Below, one piece after another: positions 10,462 through 64,000 of a stretch of DNA of 64,000 nt (position 1 is its first letter; each line of letters begins with the position of its first letter). Both the position numbers and the translations under genes were made by a program. The DNA is from Adhaeribacter pallidiroseus (lineage in GTDB: Bacteria > Bacteroidota > Bacteroidia > Cytophagales > Hymenobacteraceae), in contig NZ_QASA01000001.1 in the NCBI RefSeq assembly GCF_003340495.1, positions 2,666,001 through 2,730,000 of the forward strand, given 5' to 3'. The notes beneath the pieces were generated by a model. The model made no database searches. It saw only the letters and a list, made by a program, of their open reading frames with translations, and was not told the origin of the DNA.

Positions 10462-10734
10462 GCGTTTTAACTATCGAAACCGGCACCATGCCTTCCCTGT
10501 CCATCAACCCGATTCAGGGTATAAATCCGTAGTACCACTCACGAATTGTTACGCTACAATCCATATGGCCTAAAAACATTTCACTGGACTACTAATGGTA
10601 ACCCTTTAAAATCTGGTACCTACTGGCTAAAATATAACATTGTATATTAAAACATTGTATATATATTCACTTTCTAATACAAACACAGTCAGGAAAATAA
10701 TTTTTTTTAAAATTTAGATAATCATTCCTCCATC

Positions 10735-10777
10735 TATAGTGCAGATAACCGGAACAACTCCGTTTATCCGTTAGTTG
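10735..10777 (+). repeat. 43-nt conserved palindromic repeat, copy A (start of cassette A)
   Basis: It is identical at 38 of 43 positions to 63205-63247. An imperfect hairpin has arms GATAACCGGA (10744-10753) and TCCGTTTATC (10759-10768) around a 5-nt loop. It ends in TTAGTTG, where the cassette box GTTGGGC (10774-10780) begins. Both copies sit immediately ahead of an AT-rich accessory gene. Confidence 0.8.
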
Positions 10778-10840
10778 GGCGTAATAGAAAGAGTCAGGAT
10801 TAGAAGATGAATATAGGATACTTACTAATAATAAACATGT

Positions 10841-11149
10841 ATGAGCGGAGATGATTTTTTAGGAATAGTTTTAAGTGGCTTTATATTAGTAGGATATTAC
10901 AGTGTAGCAGGATTAGCTTATGCAATAATGCTTTTTAATCCCAAAAGGTATATTCTTGTTGACTTATTTAGTTATTTAATATGTTTGATAGCAATCCTTA
11001 TCTCATATTATCAATGGCTATCAAGTATTCAGTTTCCCCTCTATCAAATTTCTTTGTGGCTACTAATTGTTATACCTTTCTTCTTAATCATATTTAAAAA
11101 TATAAGGGACAGAATTTTAAAGCATAGGAATAATTCTACAATTGATTAA
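10841..11149 (+). CDS. Small membrane protein, cassette cargo (unknown function)
   Basis: 102 residues with three predicted membrane segments: about residues 4-30, 39-61 and 68-89, ending in a basic tail (KNIRDRILKHRN). No family is recognised. The gene is much more AT-rich than its neighbours, which fits recent transfer. It lies between box GTTGGGCG (10774-10781) and its complement CGCCCA-AC (11175-11180 continuing at 13024 after the intron), the arrangement expected of an integron gene cassette. The start ATG at 10841 is preceded by no clear Shine-Dalgarno sequence. Confidence 0.7.
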   Translation: MSGDDFLGIVLSGFILVGYYSVAGLAYAIMLFNPKRYILVDLFSYLICLIAILISYYQWLSSIQFPLYQISLWLLIVIPFFLIIFKNIRDRILKHRNNSTID

Positions 11150-11180
11150 ATAAAAGAATAAAAATAATTACTCCGCCCAA

Positions 11181-13023
11181 TCGAGTAGACGGCCCCACCA
11201 GTGTTGGCTGATGGGGAGCGCCTCTCACACCACTGTACGTACGGGTCTCGTATACAGCGGTTCGTTAAGTTGGGGGGCTACTTGTTTGTAGTAATCGAAC
11301 AACGATTCATAACCTTTCTTGACCAACCGTTTCAGCGTGATAGTGGTCACCAGGATGGGGCTTTGCGCTACTGCCCAGCCCCCTTTCCGGGTCTGGCTCC
11401 AGGCATAGGCTTCCCCTTTTGAGACGCCTAATCGGATCAGGTTCTTTCTTTTCCGCTCGGGTTTCTTCCAGTCGTGCCAGATGCAATGGCGCAGCCGGTT
11501 TCTGAGCCAACTATCCACTTGCTTTAACTTCCCCTGAATGCTGGCTAGACGAAAGTAGTTTACCCAGCCTCGCTGCACTTCCTTGAGTTGCTGAACGCGC
11601 TGCTCAAAGGCACTGGGCGTGGTCTTGCGGGTAATCCCTTTCAGGTTCTGCTTCAGCCTGGCCCAAGCCTTTTCTGCTACCACCAACTGGTATTTACCTT
11701 TCTCCCCTTTCCGGTAAGTGGGTACAAACCGGTAGCCTAGTATCTGAAAATCTACGGGTCGTCTAATGCCGCTCTTTTCCCGGTTGATGGGTAGCCTTAG
11801 CTTATTCTTCAGGAACAGGAAAAGGTTGTTGCCCACCTGCCGGGCCTCCGACTCACTTTTGGTATAAACACTAAAGTCATCGGCATAGCGCACGTACCGC
11901 AAGCCTTGCTTTTCCAACTCTTTATCCAGCTCGTGAAGCAGAATATTGGAGAGCAGCGGACTCAACGGACTGCCCTGTGGTACCCCTTTCCGGCGTTTGG
12001 TTAACTTTCCCCCAATAAGGATAGGGGCCCGAAGCCATTTGCGGATCAGGCGCAGCGTGAGCGGGCATTTTACTTTCTGGTATACCAGTTGCAGGAGCAG
12101 GCAGTGCTCTACTTCATCAAAGAAGCTTTTCAGGTCCATATCGACAATATGCTGATAGCCTTCATTAATGTTCTTCTGGGCTTGCCACACCGCCTGATGG
12201 GCGTTGCGGTTGGGCCGGAAGCCGTAGCTGTACTCTTTGAACTCCAGCTCGAAAAGCGGGGCTATGGCTTGGTTGACTGCTTGTTGTAGCAGCCGGTCGG
12301 TTACGGTAGGAATGCCTAACCGGCGCTTCTGGCCGTTGCTCTTAGGTATTTCTACCCCTAAGATGGGTAGAGGAAAGTACTGGCTGCTCCGGATAGCCGT
12401 AACTAAGGCCTCCTGATTTACTTGCAGATGCCCAGCTAGTTCAAGTACGGACATACCGTCTACGCCGGCTGCCCCTTGGTTAGCCTGCACTTGCCGGTAG
12501 GCTAGCAGCAGGTTGCCCCGGTGCAATACTTTCTCAATCATCCTACTTTCTACTTTATCTGTAATCCCTGTTCCGCTTACGCTAAGGCTGGCCAGGCCTC
12601 CTTACCACATTTGGAACAACTTCACGTTCGGCCCTTCGTCATCTTGTGAGACCTCCGCAGCGCTTACGGCTCGTTTCCTGATGGCTACTATGGCTTCTGC
12701 TGACTTCTCTCTTACCAACCCGTGGCCGAGAGACCTCCCCAGGTAAGAGCATATTCCTTCCTCCGATTCCTGGTACATCTACCCACTAGTACTTGTTGGT
12801 CAGGAGCTTTGCAAAGAGGTGCTTGCTTACCCGCACTAATGGGCCTCTTATGTACTTTCTGTTCGTCAGTACCGGATTTTGTAGTCCCGCTTTCTTCCCT
12901 GCTTATCTCACGATAAACCAGCTTGCGGCTTACTAACAGGCTGCACCAACTCGCCTGTAAGGGTCTTGCACCCTCTGGAATAATTTGGTACCTTTCAGTA
13001 CCAGATGCCCATACTGGGCGCAC
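11181..13023 (-). mobile_element. Group IIC intron (complete, about 1.84 kb)
   Basis: Read on the minus strand the intron begins GTGCGCCCAGTATGGGC at 13023 and ends CTACTCGAT at 11181. Domain V lies at about 11229-11263, with the CGC catalytic triad usual in class IIC (in AACCGCTGTATACG) and the GTACGTACAGT return arm; domain VI follows to the 3' end. The ends closely resemble those I recall for the Oceanobacillus IIC intron. The maturase reading frame in domain IV runs through domain V, also a class C habit. Domains I-III fill 12542-13023. The 5' exon carries a terminator-like hairpin, and the insertion splits an attC-type box. Confidence 0.88.
11225..12541 (-). CDS. ltrA: Group II intron reverse transcriptase/maturase
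   Basis: 438 residues. It splices its host intron and copies it into DNA at new sites. RT motifs are in order: GVDGMS near 26, YGFRPNRNAHQA near 106, DMDLKSFFDEV near 134, QGSPLSPLLSNI near 189, and the catalytic YADD at 219-222. The maturase X domain follows (WLRNRLRHCIWHDWKKP), and there is no HNH endonuclease domain, as expected for class C. The C-terminal codons (NEPLYTRPVRTVV) overlap intron domain V. The frame is intact, so the intron may be mobile. Confidence 0.95.
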   Translation of the reverse strand: MIEKVLHRGNLLLAYRQVQANQGAAGVDGMSVLELAGHLQVNQEALVTAIRSSQYFPLPILGVEIPKSNGQKRRLGIPTVTDRLLQQAVNQAIAPLFELEFKEYSYGFRPNRNAHQAVWQAQKNINEGYQHIVDMDLKSFFDEVEHCLLLQLVYQKVKCPLTLRLIRKWLRAPILIGGKLTKRRKGVPQGSPLSPLLSNILLHELDKELEKQGLRYVRYADDFSVYTKSESEARQVGNNLFLFLKNKLRLPINREKSGIRRPVDFQILGYRFVPTYRKGEKGKYQLVVAEKAWARLKQNLKGITRKTTPSAFEQRVQQLKEVQRGWVNYFRLASIQGKLKQVDSWLRNRLRHCIWHDWKKPERKRKNLIRLGVSKGEAYAWSQTRKGGWAVAQSPILVTTITLKRLVKKGYESLFDYYKQVAPQLNEPLYTRPVRTVV

Positions 13024-13072
13024 ACCACACCTAAAAATCACTAAAGCGCTTTTTAGCTAAAGAGCGTTGCAA
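13024..13072 (+). other. Right part of an attC-like site interrupted by the intron
   Basis: Removing the intron joins GCCCA (11176-11180) to AC (13024), recreating GCCCAAC, a perfect RYYYAAC integron core box and the complement of GTTGGGC at 10774. Downstream is a hairpin CTAAAAA (13031-13037) / TTTTTAG (13050-13056), then GTTG at 13066. The right-hand GTTRRRY box is imperfect (GTTGCAA). Outer CAAC and GTTG can pair around the inner hairpin, as in attC. Confidence 0.55.
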
Positions 13073-52805: not shown

Positions 52806-55800
52806 AAACCAGGAATGTTAAGGATATAACCTTGCGTGCTTTGATTATTCCGGCCGAATAGCAACAAGGTAGAACTGCCTTTTTTAATAACCGCAATATC
52901 CCGGACATCGCCTTTTACCTGTAAGCCGCTCTGCCACTGGGGCACGTACGTAAATTTAAGTTTTCCCTGATTACGCAGCACCATGCCATAATTGGCATCC
53001 ATTTTTCCAATTTTTAACCGGGTGTAAGATTGATTGCCGCCCAGAATAATATCCTTGAAACCATCGTGGTCTACGTCCACGAGGGCAATAGCATACACGG
53101 GTGCAAACTGGGCTTCCAGCGGTAATTCCTGCATCGCAAAAGTGCCGTCGCCTTTGTTTTCCAGGATAACCGATTGGAAAGTAGCGGCTTGCAGAGTTTG
53201 AGCCTGTTGCTGTTGCTCCGGGGTTAAAATATCAGTTATGGTGGCATTAGCGTACGCCCGGTAACTGGTAAACTTCTTGCGCAGCGGAATCATTTGATTT
53301 AAAGCTTCGTCGCGGCTAACTAATGGATACGATTTACCCTGGATATAATAACACAGAAAAGGATCAATGGCTTCGTTCTGATCAAAATCGCCGTAAACTA
53401 TTGTAACCGGCTCTTTTTCGGTAGGTTTTAATTGCGTATTCTGCCCAAAGTTGCCCGCTACCAGATCCTGGTCGCCGTCTTTATCTAAATCTTCTAGGGC
53501 CAAACGGTTCCACCAGCCGGTAGTACCCGGGCCAAGCACCGCTTTTTCAGATTTTTTTAAAATTCCTTGCTGGTTCAAGATTACGGTGATGGGCATCCAC
53601 TCACCCGCAATAATTAAATCGGGCCAGGTGTCTTTGTTTACGTCCAGCACTACGGCATCGGTTACTAAGCCTATTTTTGCTAAAAAAGGCGCCCGTTGTA
53701 CGGTTTCTTCGGTAAACTTGCCTTTACCATCGTTGAGTAAAATGCGGCTACTGGCGGGCTCGGGGTATTTGCCCGGAATTACCCGCCCCCCACGAACAAG
53801 TCCAGGTCTCCGTCTTTATCTATATCCAAGGTTGTAACACAGGCATCGCTGCTGCTTTCGTAAGGAATATTACCGTGCGCCCGCGAAAAATTACCAGTGC
53901 CATCATTTAAGTACAACCGGTCTTGCAGCAGCATGTCTTTTTCCAGGTACGCATAGCCGCCGCTTACCACGTATAAATCCGGATCACCGTCCTGGTCCGC
54001 GTCAAAAAAGACGGCGCCGGTATCTTCAAACATAAAATCGTTTACAAAAGCCGGCGGGTTACTAGCTTTCCAGGACCCGTTTTTCTGCTGCAAAAGCAAG
54101 GTACCAGCCTGCCCTTTGGCACCAGCTGCGTATATATCCGTTAGCCCGTCTTTATCAACATCGGCCTGCGCGAGGCGAGGCCCCTGGTACGACAACATGT
54201 TGGGCATTAATAACTGCCGCTTAAAATCATTATATTCGTCTTCTTGATGCTCGTAGGGCAAAGTATCTTTACTTACCGCGGTTAAAAGCGTTTTGACCCG
54301 TGTTACCGGCAACCCATTTTTGATAGCTCCCGAAGGTTCTAAAATTATTTTCTGATCGGCTTTTACCTGCGTTAAAGTTTGCTGCTTACCATCGGGCCAT
54401 ACCACGCGCACGCTATCGGCAGCAGTGGCCGTACCTAAACCAAAATGTAACGGCTGGTACATACTCGACTGAAAGCCGCGCGAAGGGTAAAATTCCTGAT
54501 ATTGCTGGGTGCCTTTGCTGTACACCCAGACTTTGGTTCCTAAAGCTTTGGCCAAATATCCGGCCCCGCATTGTACTTGCAAATAATGTGCGGTAGCAGG
54601 GCGCGCTTCGTTGCGGTAAATAGCAACTTCCTGATTTACGTTGTTTGTAATTATTTCTAAATCGCCATCATTATCCAGGTCGGCGTAAACAGCACCATTT
54701 GAGAGAAAAGTTTGATCGAAGCCCCATTCTTTTACTTTATTCTCAAATCCTAACCGGCCGTTGTTACGAAAGATATAGTTTTGGGTAGCTGTGGCCGGCA
54801 TTTGCTTCATAATATCCATTAAGGCCGTAGGACTGCCCTGGGCTTCCTTCATTTTCTGGTCGGCATAGAACTTCATAAAGTCCATGTTGGTGTAATCGCG
54901 CAGGTAACCATTGGTAATAAACAAATCTTTCCAGCCATCGTTGTCGAAATCCGCTACCAACGGTGCCCAGCTCCAATCGGTGTTGGAAATGCCCGCCAAC
55001 TGGCCCACTTCGCTAAAAGTACCATCGCCGTTGTTTAATTGCAGCATATTCCGCATGAGCTGGTGATAGAACCCGTTCTGGAGCATGTTCTGGTAGGTCT
55101 CGTAGTTTTCGGGACCGTACAGTAATTTCTGCCGGTAATTATCGGCAGGCAACATGTCTAAAGTAAGAATATCCGGCAAGCCATCGTTGTTGATATCGGT
55201 AATTTCGTTGCCCATGGAAAAGTAACTTACATGCCCGATAGCCTGCTCCAACTTATCGGTGAAAGTACCATTCTTATTATTCAGGTAAAAATAATCCTGC
55301 TCAATGTAATCGTTGGATACGTAGATATCGGGCCAGCCATCCTGGTTTACATCCGCTATAGCCACGCCTAAACCAAAACCAATTGGGTTGCCTTTAATAC
55401 CAGCCTGGGCGCTTACATCCACAAACTTACCATTGTCGTTGCGCAACAGCCGGTCGCCGGCAAACTCGTCGCGCATGGCTTTTACCGCCGCGGCATCAAA
55501 GCGTTTAAAATCTTTCACGTTATGGTTCAGGCTGAAGCAGTCCAGATCACCATCTCTGTCGTAATCAAAAAAGCAGCCTGGGTGCTGTGGGTATTTAAAT
55601 CTAACCCATATTCGGCGGCCTTTTCACTGAAAGTGAGGTTTTTGTTATTCAGGTAAAGTTTGTTACGCCGGTTTTCCGGTTGGCCGTTGCCGGAATAGCA
55701 CACGTAAATGTCCAGCCAGCCATCCTGGTTTAGATCTACCAGCGACACGCCCGTTTTCCAGCCTTTGGCGGCATTCAAACCCGACTTAAGCGTAACATCC

Positions 55801-56171
55801 TTAAATTGCAGGTTACCCTGATTGATATAAAGCCGGTCGGGAACCATGTTGCCCGTAAAAAACAAATCTGGTAAGCCGTCGTTGTTTAAATCGCCCACTG
55901 CCGCGCCGCCGCCGTTGTAAAAATATTCGTAAGCCAGCACATTGGCCGTCTCCGATTCGGTTAATTTGTTTACAAAACCAACGCCGGTTTGCTGGGCTGG
56001 CAATAATGTAAACTGAGCTAAGCCGCGCGGGGCGATTAACAGAAACAAACCCCAGAATAGCAAGTTTTGGCCAGTTAACCGCCATTTTAAACGTAGGTTA
56101 CTCCGGACAGGACTGTTTTTTTTAAATTTTAACGTAATTGTTTTTGTTTTCAAGGCACCCAATTTCTGCAA
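52802..56171 (-). pseudogene. CRTAC1-type FG-GAP/ASPIC-UnbV protein, two frameshifts
   Basis: The rebuilt product is about 1120 residues: signal peptide (LLFWGLFLLIAPRGLAQ), then many FG-GAP/VCBS calcium-type repeats (DLNNDGLPDLFF, DVNQDGWPDIYV, DIDKDGDLDLFV), an ASPIC/UnbV segment near VRVVWPDGKQQTL, and more repeats. The frame breaks at 55567-55572 (six A) and 53786-53791 (six C); one extra base in each run restores a continuous protein. Pieces: 56171-55527, 55518-53779, 53650-52802. It is coupled to the haloperoxidase gene by ATGA. These proteins often accompany SusC/D systems; the role is unknown, probably extracellular binding. Confidence 0.85.
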
Positions 56172-63204: not shown

Positions 63205-63247
63205 TATAATGCAGATAACCGGAGTAACTCCGTTTATCTGATAGTTG
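63205..63247 (+). repeat. 43-nt conserved palindromic repeat, copy B (start of cassette B)
   Basis: It matches copy A (10735-10777) at 38 of 43 positions. Here the hairpin is longer, CAGATAACCGGA (63212-63223) and TCCGTTTATCTG (63229-63240), with one mismatch and a 5-nt loop. It ends in GTTG, which begins the box GTTGTACCAA (63244-63253). Confidence 0.8.
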
Positions 63248-63262
63248 TACCAAATTTAAAAA

Positions 63263-63610
63263 ATGGAATATCCAGAAGAGTATGAGTTAATGGCGGTATT
63301 TGAGTCCGAACCAATTATGCTTGATCCAGATGTTCCATTTTATTATAACAAATCGACATATAAATACACAAACTCTGAAAAAGAGGAATTTACATTTTCG
63401 ATTTTACCCTCATATAGTGAAATTTCCATTAATGTAACTATAGCTAATTTTGAAATTGCTAATTTGAGTTTGCAAAATATAAGAAACTTCAAAATACTAA
63501 GCGACAACAAATTAGAAAAAAGAATTATGTTATCTGGAGAAAACTACTTGCTGAAAATTCAATTGAAACCAAAATTCAGCATTCAGTTCAAAGAAGAAAT
63601 AGAAAAATAG
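63263..63610 (+). CDS. Hypothetical cassette-borne protein
   Basis: 115 residues, soluble, acidic and Lys/Asn/Ile-rich, starting MEYPEEYELMAVFESEPIML. Alternating strands (FTFSILPSYSEISINVTIAN) suggest a beta-rich fold; no family is recognised. The gene is clearly more AT-rich than the GH36 gene beside it. It starts 10 nt after box GTTGTACCAA and its stop is 5 nt before the complementary box TTGGTACAAC (63615-63624). This tight fit is that of an integron gene cassette. Confidence 0.7.
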   Translation: MEYPEEYELMAVFESEPIMLDPDVPFYYNKSTYKYTNSEKEEFTFSILPSYSEISINVTIANFEIANLSLQNIRNFKILSDNKLEKRIMLSGENYLLKIQLKPKFSIQFKEEIEK

Positions 63611-63614
63611 AAAC

Positions 63615-63683
63615 TTGGTACAACACAATGTATACAAAACCCTTGCTTCGCTACAGGCTTTGCATACACGCAGCCCGTTGTGT
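63615..63683 (+). other. attC-like recombination site between cassettes
   Basis: It starts with TTGGTACAAC, the exact complement of the cassette's own left box, and ends GTTGTGT (63677-63683). Inside, TGTAT-a-CAAA-a-CC (63629-63641) pairs with GG-c-TTTG-c-ATACA (63656-63668) around a 14-nt loop, with single mismatches like the unpaired bases of attC. The AAC/GTT core triplets are kept; the full RYYYAAC and GTTRRRY consensus is not. Confidence 0.65.
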
Positions 63684-63692
63684 TTAATTAAA

Positions 63693-64000
63693 ATGAAAGA
63701 AGGATACAAATTCATAATACAACCTGACGGGAGTGAACGAGAAATCGACTGGCCTGAATTGAATCATTTAAAGAAGGATATTCTTTGGATTTTTGATGAG
63801 AATTATGGTGACCTTGGGAATGCCTTTGTTCCATCCTATTCATTTTCACAGAGATATTGGGAGTATTTAACTTTGGATGGTGATAAATGGTTTTATGAAG
63901 AAGATAAAGCCTTTTATCATCGGGGCTTGCTTATCATACTATTGTGTTGCTGTTCCGAATATATAGATATCCCAACAGGTAGCCAGGAAGTTTTTCCTCG
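63693..64000 (+). CDS. Second cassette-borne hypothetical protein (3' partial)
   Basis: 102 complete codons from the ATG at 63693 to the window edge with no stop. It starts MKEGYKFIIQPDGSEREIDW and continues YSFSQRYWEYLTLDGDKWFY. Acidic and aromatic-rich, no signal peptide, no recognised family; the general look is of a small cytosolic immunity- or SMI1-like protein, which is only an impression. It begins 16 nt after the presumed crossover G|TT at 63677. Confidence 0.6.
   Translation, partial: MKEGYKFIIQPDGSEREIDWPELNHLKKDILWIFDENYGDLGNAFVPSYSFSQRYWEYLTLDGDKWFYEEDKAFYHRGLLIILLCCCSEYIDIPTGSQEVFP

Follow-up and report, generated by a model that had tools for sequence, protein, structure and literature searches.

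A recombinase-free cassette array in Adhaeribacter pallidiroseus: a probable decayed integron of a class linked to a tyrosine recombinase without the IntI-specific domain

Introduction

What is a run of small genes bounded by complementary boxes and separated by hairpins, when no integrase stands beside it? The question is raised by the right end of a 64,000-nt stretch of DNA from Adhaeribacter pallidiroseus, here called the window, which corresponds to C1:2666001-2730000 within a 6.4-Mb genome of the Hymenobacteraceae, the family to which Pontibacter and Rufibacter also belong. An earlier note, made from the letters alone, had read the locus as a CALIN, a cluster of attC sites lacking an integron integrase. 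CALIN are defined with canonical attC models. In the literature, the IntI-specific domain is held to define the integron integrase and to be necessary for it (PMC7784347; PMC9668308), surveys filter on this domain (PMC9668308), and with IntegronFinder 2.0 one complete integron was found in Bacteroidetes proper, in Salinibacter ruber (PMC9024848). A class whose recombinase is devoid of the integron-defining domain is therefore missed by standard surveys.

The Array at the End of the Window

The array has the following elements (positions in the window, strand).

63205..63246, +: attI-like site at the array head, TGCAGATAACCGGAGTAACTCCGTTTATCTGATA followed by GTT (E 2.7e-6, the window being left out of the profile)
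63244..63676, +: cassette A, from its own GTT to the base preceding the next GTT, with complementary start and end boxes and then an attC-like site
63244..63257, +: start box of cassette A, GTTGTACCAAATTT, complementary to the end box at 10 of 10 scored positions, with A.C at position 11
63263..63610, +: ORF of cassette A, 115 aa
63611..63624, +: end box of cassette A, AAACTTGGTACAAC, complementary to the start box
63622..63679, +: attC-like hairpin site of cassette A, AAC ... GTT
63677..64000, +: cassette B, starting GTTGTGTTTAATTA, cut at the window end and continuing to L008 4286
63693..64000, +: ORF of cassette B, 180 aa, whole in L008 3693-4235

When checked against the sequence, the boxes of cassette A (GTTGTACCAA at 63244 and its complement TTGGTACAAC at 63615-63624), the 115-aa ORF, the hairpin, GTTGTGT at 63677 and the second gene, whose ATG follows 16 nt later, all lie where the earlier note had placed them. 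Pairs of 10-bp complements arise 1.15 times per 64 kb in order-1 Markov sequences, that is, about once per window by chance, and are therefore insufficient by themselves; the full 14-bp pattern (10 scored matches, A.C at position 11) is seen a single time in the window and not at all in 60 simulated windows. The hairpin of cassette A scores 37.2 bits (E 3.3e-8) with R1, a covariance model of its site family which counts this hairpin among its 61 training sites, so that independent support comes instead from two further genomic copies, 95% identical to it in a DNA search.

A box complementary to GTTGTGT had been predicted beyond 64000, with more hairpins to its right, and both are there: cassette B ends ...AACACAAC at L008 4239-4246, with TAACTGAACACAAC as its end box and an attC-like site at L008 4244-4289, and is followed by a third cassette, C, with GTTGGCGG at its start and CCGCCAAC at its end; past C the array breaks. 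The reading of the genes as cassettes has thus held. No Pfam family was found for the ORF of either A or B in a Pfam search, the ORF of cassette A has no relative among 58 other genomes, and for ten array ORFs few Pfam families were found.

The label CALIN is right only in that no integrase adjoins the array. It falls short in that the array is headed by an attI-like site, detected by an HMM built from 31 such sites lying 131-152 nt past recombinase stop codons in relatives, with the window left out (a genome-wide attI model that contains the window row gives E 1.2e-8). The locus is hence better described as a platform minus its recombinase. Directly upstream of the site at 63205 there is no adjacent recombinase remnant, and the case for a loss of the recombinase here is made by the position of the site and by other loci.

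The Cassette Boxes and the Hairpin

The earlier note had given as established that the first bases of a cassette (TTRRRY) complement the first box of its own attC. Complementarity between the start of a cassette and its own attC is indeed present, but the rule is wider here, extending over 14 bp with a fixed A.C mismatch: a cassette starts with GTT, seven variable bases, A and three further bases, and ends with a complementary sequence of three bases, C, seven bases and AAC. The canonical core boxes GTTRRRY/RYYYAAC are not observed, since the GTTGTAC and GTTGTGT of the window do not fit them, and positions 5-7 of the box are unconstrained across 256 sites. The complementary run between the start and the end of the same cassette measures 7.84 bp, versus 3.85 bp in random pairs (sd 0.08, n = 218 consecutive site pairs), while the two boxes flanking one hairpin within an array share 4.04 bp, no better than random. 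The complementarity is therefore between the ends of one cassette, and a matched site exists only on the excised circle and is absent in the array.

At position 11 of near-perfect boxes, A.C was counted 283 times and its mirror G.T 281 times, versus 5-33 for the other base combinations, and on the bottom strand the mismatch becomes a T.G wobble. According to DNA folding, the bottom strand is the more stable one in 182 of 184 reconstituted sites, and in 179 of the 184 the excised circle folds better than the in-array hybrid; a lone site folded outside its box context gives no significant signal (z -0.33 top, -1.56 bottom). The hairpin arms carry 146 double changes versus 37 in shuffled controls and very few one-sided changes, a pattern to be expected if the structure forms in DNA and not in RNA. 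Of 167 cassettes, 161 carry their gene in sense orientation; the median start lies 24 nt past the GTT, and the gene stops 18 nt short of the point where the box finishes. As to the procedures, a hairpin-first scan with fixed arms returned many false sites, and covariance models together with the box rule were used instead; a simple chain test for the strand turned out to be symmetrical under reverse complement, and it is the A.C rule that does give the strand.

It might be supposed that these hairpins do not move, being terminators, repeat elements or the like which stand between small genes by chance, and they do follow genes closely. This supposition leaves unexplained both the end-to-end complementarity of each gene unit and the fixed A.C mismatch, and it is refuted in practice by identical units found in differing contexts, with left junctions at GTT (see below), so that it is scarcely credible.

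Other Loci in the Same Genome

Over the whole chromosome, covariance models built from confident sites, nearly all of them from relatives, detect about 65 attC-like sites, and the attI model detects some dozen attI-like sites. One of the two 95% identical copies of the cassette A hairpin lies 2 kb from a tyrosine recombinase gene with at least five cassettes downstream. The expectation of an intI gene elsewhere in the genome was borne out as far as a recombinase with its own array at C1:1339.5 kb is concerned, but this recombinase is not IntI (204 bits vs 265, insertion absent), and a frameshift splits its N-terminal modules from its catalytic part. The attI profile missed this genome's own linked array (L009), whose head site is, by eye, like that of the same-genus genomes G014 and G019. 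No canonical IntI over the family cut-off was found in the source genome by model search, and two further Xer-type tyrosine recombinase genes are present.

At several loci, attI is followed by one to four attC sites without a recombinase. Two of them are in the window, at 63205 and at 10720, the latter being composed as follows.

10720..10776, +: second attI-like site, also without a recombinase (E 4e-11; C1:2676717-2676776 in the genome-wide search)
10774..13062, +: single cassette, with an ORF at 10841-11149 and an end box at about 11168-11180, interrupted by a group II intron
11225..12541, -: maturase/reverse transcriptase ORF of the group II intron, inside the attC box
12747-12917, -: intron RNA core, RF02001 (Rfam, 109.7 bits)
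13023..13068, +: remainder of the attC-like site (35.5 bits, model R2)

Canonical integrons, too, are known to have group II introns at attC sites. Upstream of two other arrays, at C1:3679194 and C1:4983985, there are recombinase fragments with stops. Taken together, the attI loci without recombinase, the fragments and the frameshifted copy make the window feature best read as one of several decayed integrons. It is very probably a decayed sedentary integron, retaining an attI-like site and cassettes A, B and C and having lost its recombinase, of a class run by an IntI-related tyrosine recombinase without the IntI-specific domain. Since the one linked recombinase gene left in the genome carries a frameshift, the array is probably inactive, barring a recombinase that acts in trans.

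Linkage to the Recombinase in Relatives

In relatives the recombinase gene is intact and stands beside the array: the sequence after its stop codon reads ...CATAGTGCAGATAAGCG...TATAC.GTA, the boundary lying before GTT, and then the array begins. In the Hymenobacteraceae this attI-like site, 131-152 nt past the stop, is kept after nearly every copy examined, and the distance from the stop codon to the first cassette is constant within a lineage. Cassette density is 0.435/kb downstream of recombinases vs 0.024 upstream and 0.031 on the other strand, an 18-fold downstream enrichment, and at the locus with the largest array 28 cassettes were detected in 17 kb. Thus, relatives have an attI site beside the integrase, at which a cassette shared between species begins exactly, and an array with folded attC sites. 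Those with arrays include Pontibacter, Rufibacter, Winogradskyella epiphytica, Flavobacterium palustre and Algibacter onchidii and, beyond the Bacteroidota, Halanaerobacter jeridensis, while Hymenobacter-type relatives of the same family (L066, L072, L073) have one or two candidate cassettes only. Plasmids of Pontibacter kalidii and of a Chryseobacterium sp. (L218, L219) carry the recombinase with candidate cassettes, and the Rufibacter tibetensis plasmid NZ_CP012644.1 carries the recombinase at 108493-109944, so that mobile versions of the IntI-less class exist.

The array of the window could still be an ordinary CALIN, made of attC cassettes shed by a canonical integron, with IntI serving in trans. 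The plan is the same (AAC, hairpin, GTT, one sense gene per cassette), and canonical IntI genes above the family cut-off are present in 84 of 296 sampled Bacteroidota genomes, many more than the one complete integron of IntegronFinder 2.0 would suggest. Against this, the source genome has no IntI over the cut-off, its attI-like sites match those beside the IntI-less recombinase, and at canonical IntI loci in the phylum A.C cassettes are no more frequent than background, which means that the box rule goes with the IntI-less family; this origin is therefore very improbable.

It has also to be considered that the recombinase could be a bystander or a regulator sharing a hotspot, while XerC/XerD or another host recombinase moves the cassettes. 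Such an arrangement would suit the two Xer-type genes of the source genome and the several relatives of the recombinase that lie at contig ends or beside few cassettes. It is at odds with an enrichment confined to the downstream side, with the lineage-specific constancy of the stop-to-cassette distance, with the retention of the attI-like site and its position in the Hymenobacteraceae, and with the recombinase fragments upstream of two decayed arrays, and is only a little less improbable than the ordinary CALIN. Many contigs (L097-L106, L112, L115, L117, L120 and others) end a few hundred bases past the recombinase, as if arrays break assemblies.

The Recombinase

Homologues of the recombinase, mostly of about 485 aa, occur in 76 of 150 genomes of the family, and at E 1e-70 its profile detects members in 94 of 296 sampled Bacteroidota genomes and 64 of 140 genera, an array not being implied for each. 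Alignments of 22 and of 27 relatives show no variation at the equivalents of the catalytic residues R, K, H, R, H and Y. The best NCBIfam relative is the integron-integrase model TIGR02249 (integrase_gron), the 'integron-like' tyrosine recombinase subgroup of PMC8138268, with which the recombinase scores 204.4 bits, below the cut-off of 265 and slightly better than with Xer models; in the part of PMC8138268 that was seen, arrays beside insertion-less members are not described. The distance from KDR to HxLRH is 58-63 residues in 104 members vs 100 in 17 IntI of the same phylum, a short spacing which means that the IntI-specific domain is absent; compared with structure 2a3v, about 43 residues are missing.

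In a tree rooted with two Xer outgroup sequences only, both on long branches, the recombinase family (39 rows, 98/92) and IntI (17 rows, 100/100) form separate sister groups, with Xer outside. The recombinase could in principle be a true IntI that has lost the insertion secondarily, rather than a lineage that split off before IntI gained it, and the sister relationship, the common C-terminal SPLD end and the slightly higher score with IntI than with Xer models are compatible with such a loss. The two groups are nevertheless separate and well supported, with no IntI nested in the family, and Xer proteins are also without the insertion, so that a single gain in IntI is the simpler history and a secondary loss is unlikely.

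In a whole-model structure comparison, archaeal Xer/XerA and IntI are closest (Z 24.2, 21.6, 19.4). Each recombinase has one or two copies of an N-terminal module, for which no Pfam family was found by Pfam search and no confident match by Foldseek alone. The seven top rows for its predicted fold are the archaeal XPB damage-recognition domain (Z 5.4-6.2 over 54-57 residues), the best of which (Z 6.2, 57 residues) is within the range that a common arrangement can produce, and the SMARCAL1 HARP domain is matched with Z 3.7. The likeness to these domains is thus one of predicted fold with no detectable sequence family, and the module is here fused to a recombinase. Viral relatives of the recombinase exist as well.

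Cassette Exchange

On comparative evidence, the cassettes move between sites. Two species share 1019 bp at 100% identity, placed beside attI in L077 and mid-array in L083, with GTT as the exact start of the shared sequence. In Rufibacter (L050 = G053), a copy with 94% identity to the first cassette of the source genome's own recombinase-linked integron lies in the middle of an array. Cassette B of the window is itself found a second time 1.3 Mb away in the same genome, 100% identical over 603 bp, where it follows attI-like sequence and has its left junction at GTT. The last ~7 nt before the right GTT differ between the two copies (CGCGGCCC vs CAGCC; L203 vs L008 4286), which is one unclean junction, unexplained if the crossover is always at GTT.

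tet(X) Cassettes

In plasmids from Acinetobacter, a truncated family member and an attI-like hairpin come immediately before tet(X3) and tet(X5), which begin GTTATGTGCCATTT. tet(X2) on pWB8 of Sphingobacterium faecium starts in the same way and ends AAACGGCACATAAC, the two forming a perfect box pair including the A.C mismatch, and downstream there are a strong hairpin (z -7.7) and then another GTT (features of tet(X2) and of tet(X3)/tet(X5): L220 5001-6345; L217 5290-5374; L221 4105-4193). With this box pair, hairpin and GTT, tet(X) has the anatomy of a cassette of the IntI-less class, and the box rule places at least one clinically important resistance gene in such a cassette. In PMC8635130, where the words integron and cassette are only incidental, the gene beside tet(X3) is treated as xerD in an ISCR2 structure; in this ISCR2-xerD-tet(X3) arrangement, the 'xerD' occupies the place of the truncated IntI-less family member, and the attI-like site follows. 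A scan of viral contigs found no tet(X).

Proposed Mechanism and Relation to Known Integrons

Beyond the anatomy, the box rule, the linkage, the cassette exchange, the absence of the IntI-specific domain and the decay in the source genome, which are read from the sequences, a mechanism can be proposed. The linkage and the intact catalytic residues suggest that the linked recombinase catalyses cassette recombination. The excised circle would fold into a hairpin on its bottom strand, on which the mismatch is a T.G wobble and the stem is the more stable one. The recombinase would then bind the folded strand, and the XPB/HARP-like N-terminal modules may recognise the distortion of the marked hairpin, replacing the IntI domain. 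The circle would be joined to attI between G and TT, the newest cassette entering at the array head. Once integration has taken place, every site is made of two unmatched halves, each from another cassette, and this should make storage more likely than excision.

As in canonical integrons, there are an attI-like head site, tandem single-gene cassettes in sense orientation, a recombination point at GTT, hairpins whose bottom strand is the more stable, ends of cassettes that complement their starts and exchange between species. Unlike in canonical integrons, the integrase is without the IntI-specific domain and has an extra N-terminal module, the box is a hypervariable one of 14 bp (GTT N7 A N3, vs GTTRRRY) with a fixed A.C mismatch, and the recombinase gene points toward the array. 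The array of the window resembles a CALIN in having no adjacent integrase but differs in keeping an attI-like site and in having attC-like sites of the IntI-less class.

The wider proposal, whose chances we judge evenly balanced, is that of a second integron class, carried by Bacteroidota but also by some Halanaerobiales and in other phyla, which is the sister of the IntI class and may be the older of the two. Its integrase would have exchanged the IntI domain for an N-terminal module that binds mismatches or forks and reads the fixed A.C-marked bottom-strand hairpin, anonymous cassettes would be stored phylum-wide, and tet(X) would have been captured before it spread into Acinetobacter. A literature search yielded no account of IntI-less integrons or of arrays linked to insertion-less members, which is weak evidence, as preprints and most subscription journals lay outside its scope. 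If arrays and attI sites are indeed run by recombinases devoid of the IntI-specific domain, integron activity is possible without that domain, published counts greatly understate how common integrons are in Bacteroidota, and a comparison of the sister lineages offers a way to test how the folded single-strand reaction arose. For cassettes of the IntI-less class, the pattern GTT N7 A N3 ... N3 C N7 AAC offers a simple detector.

Elsewhere in the window, two adjoining ORFs at 53779-56171 (- strand), which encode the halves of an FG-GAP-like repeat protein, look like one gene split by a frameshift or a stop.
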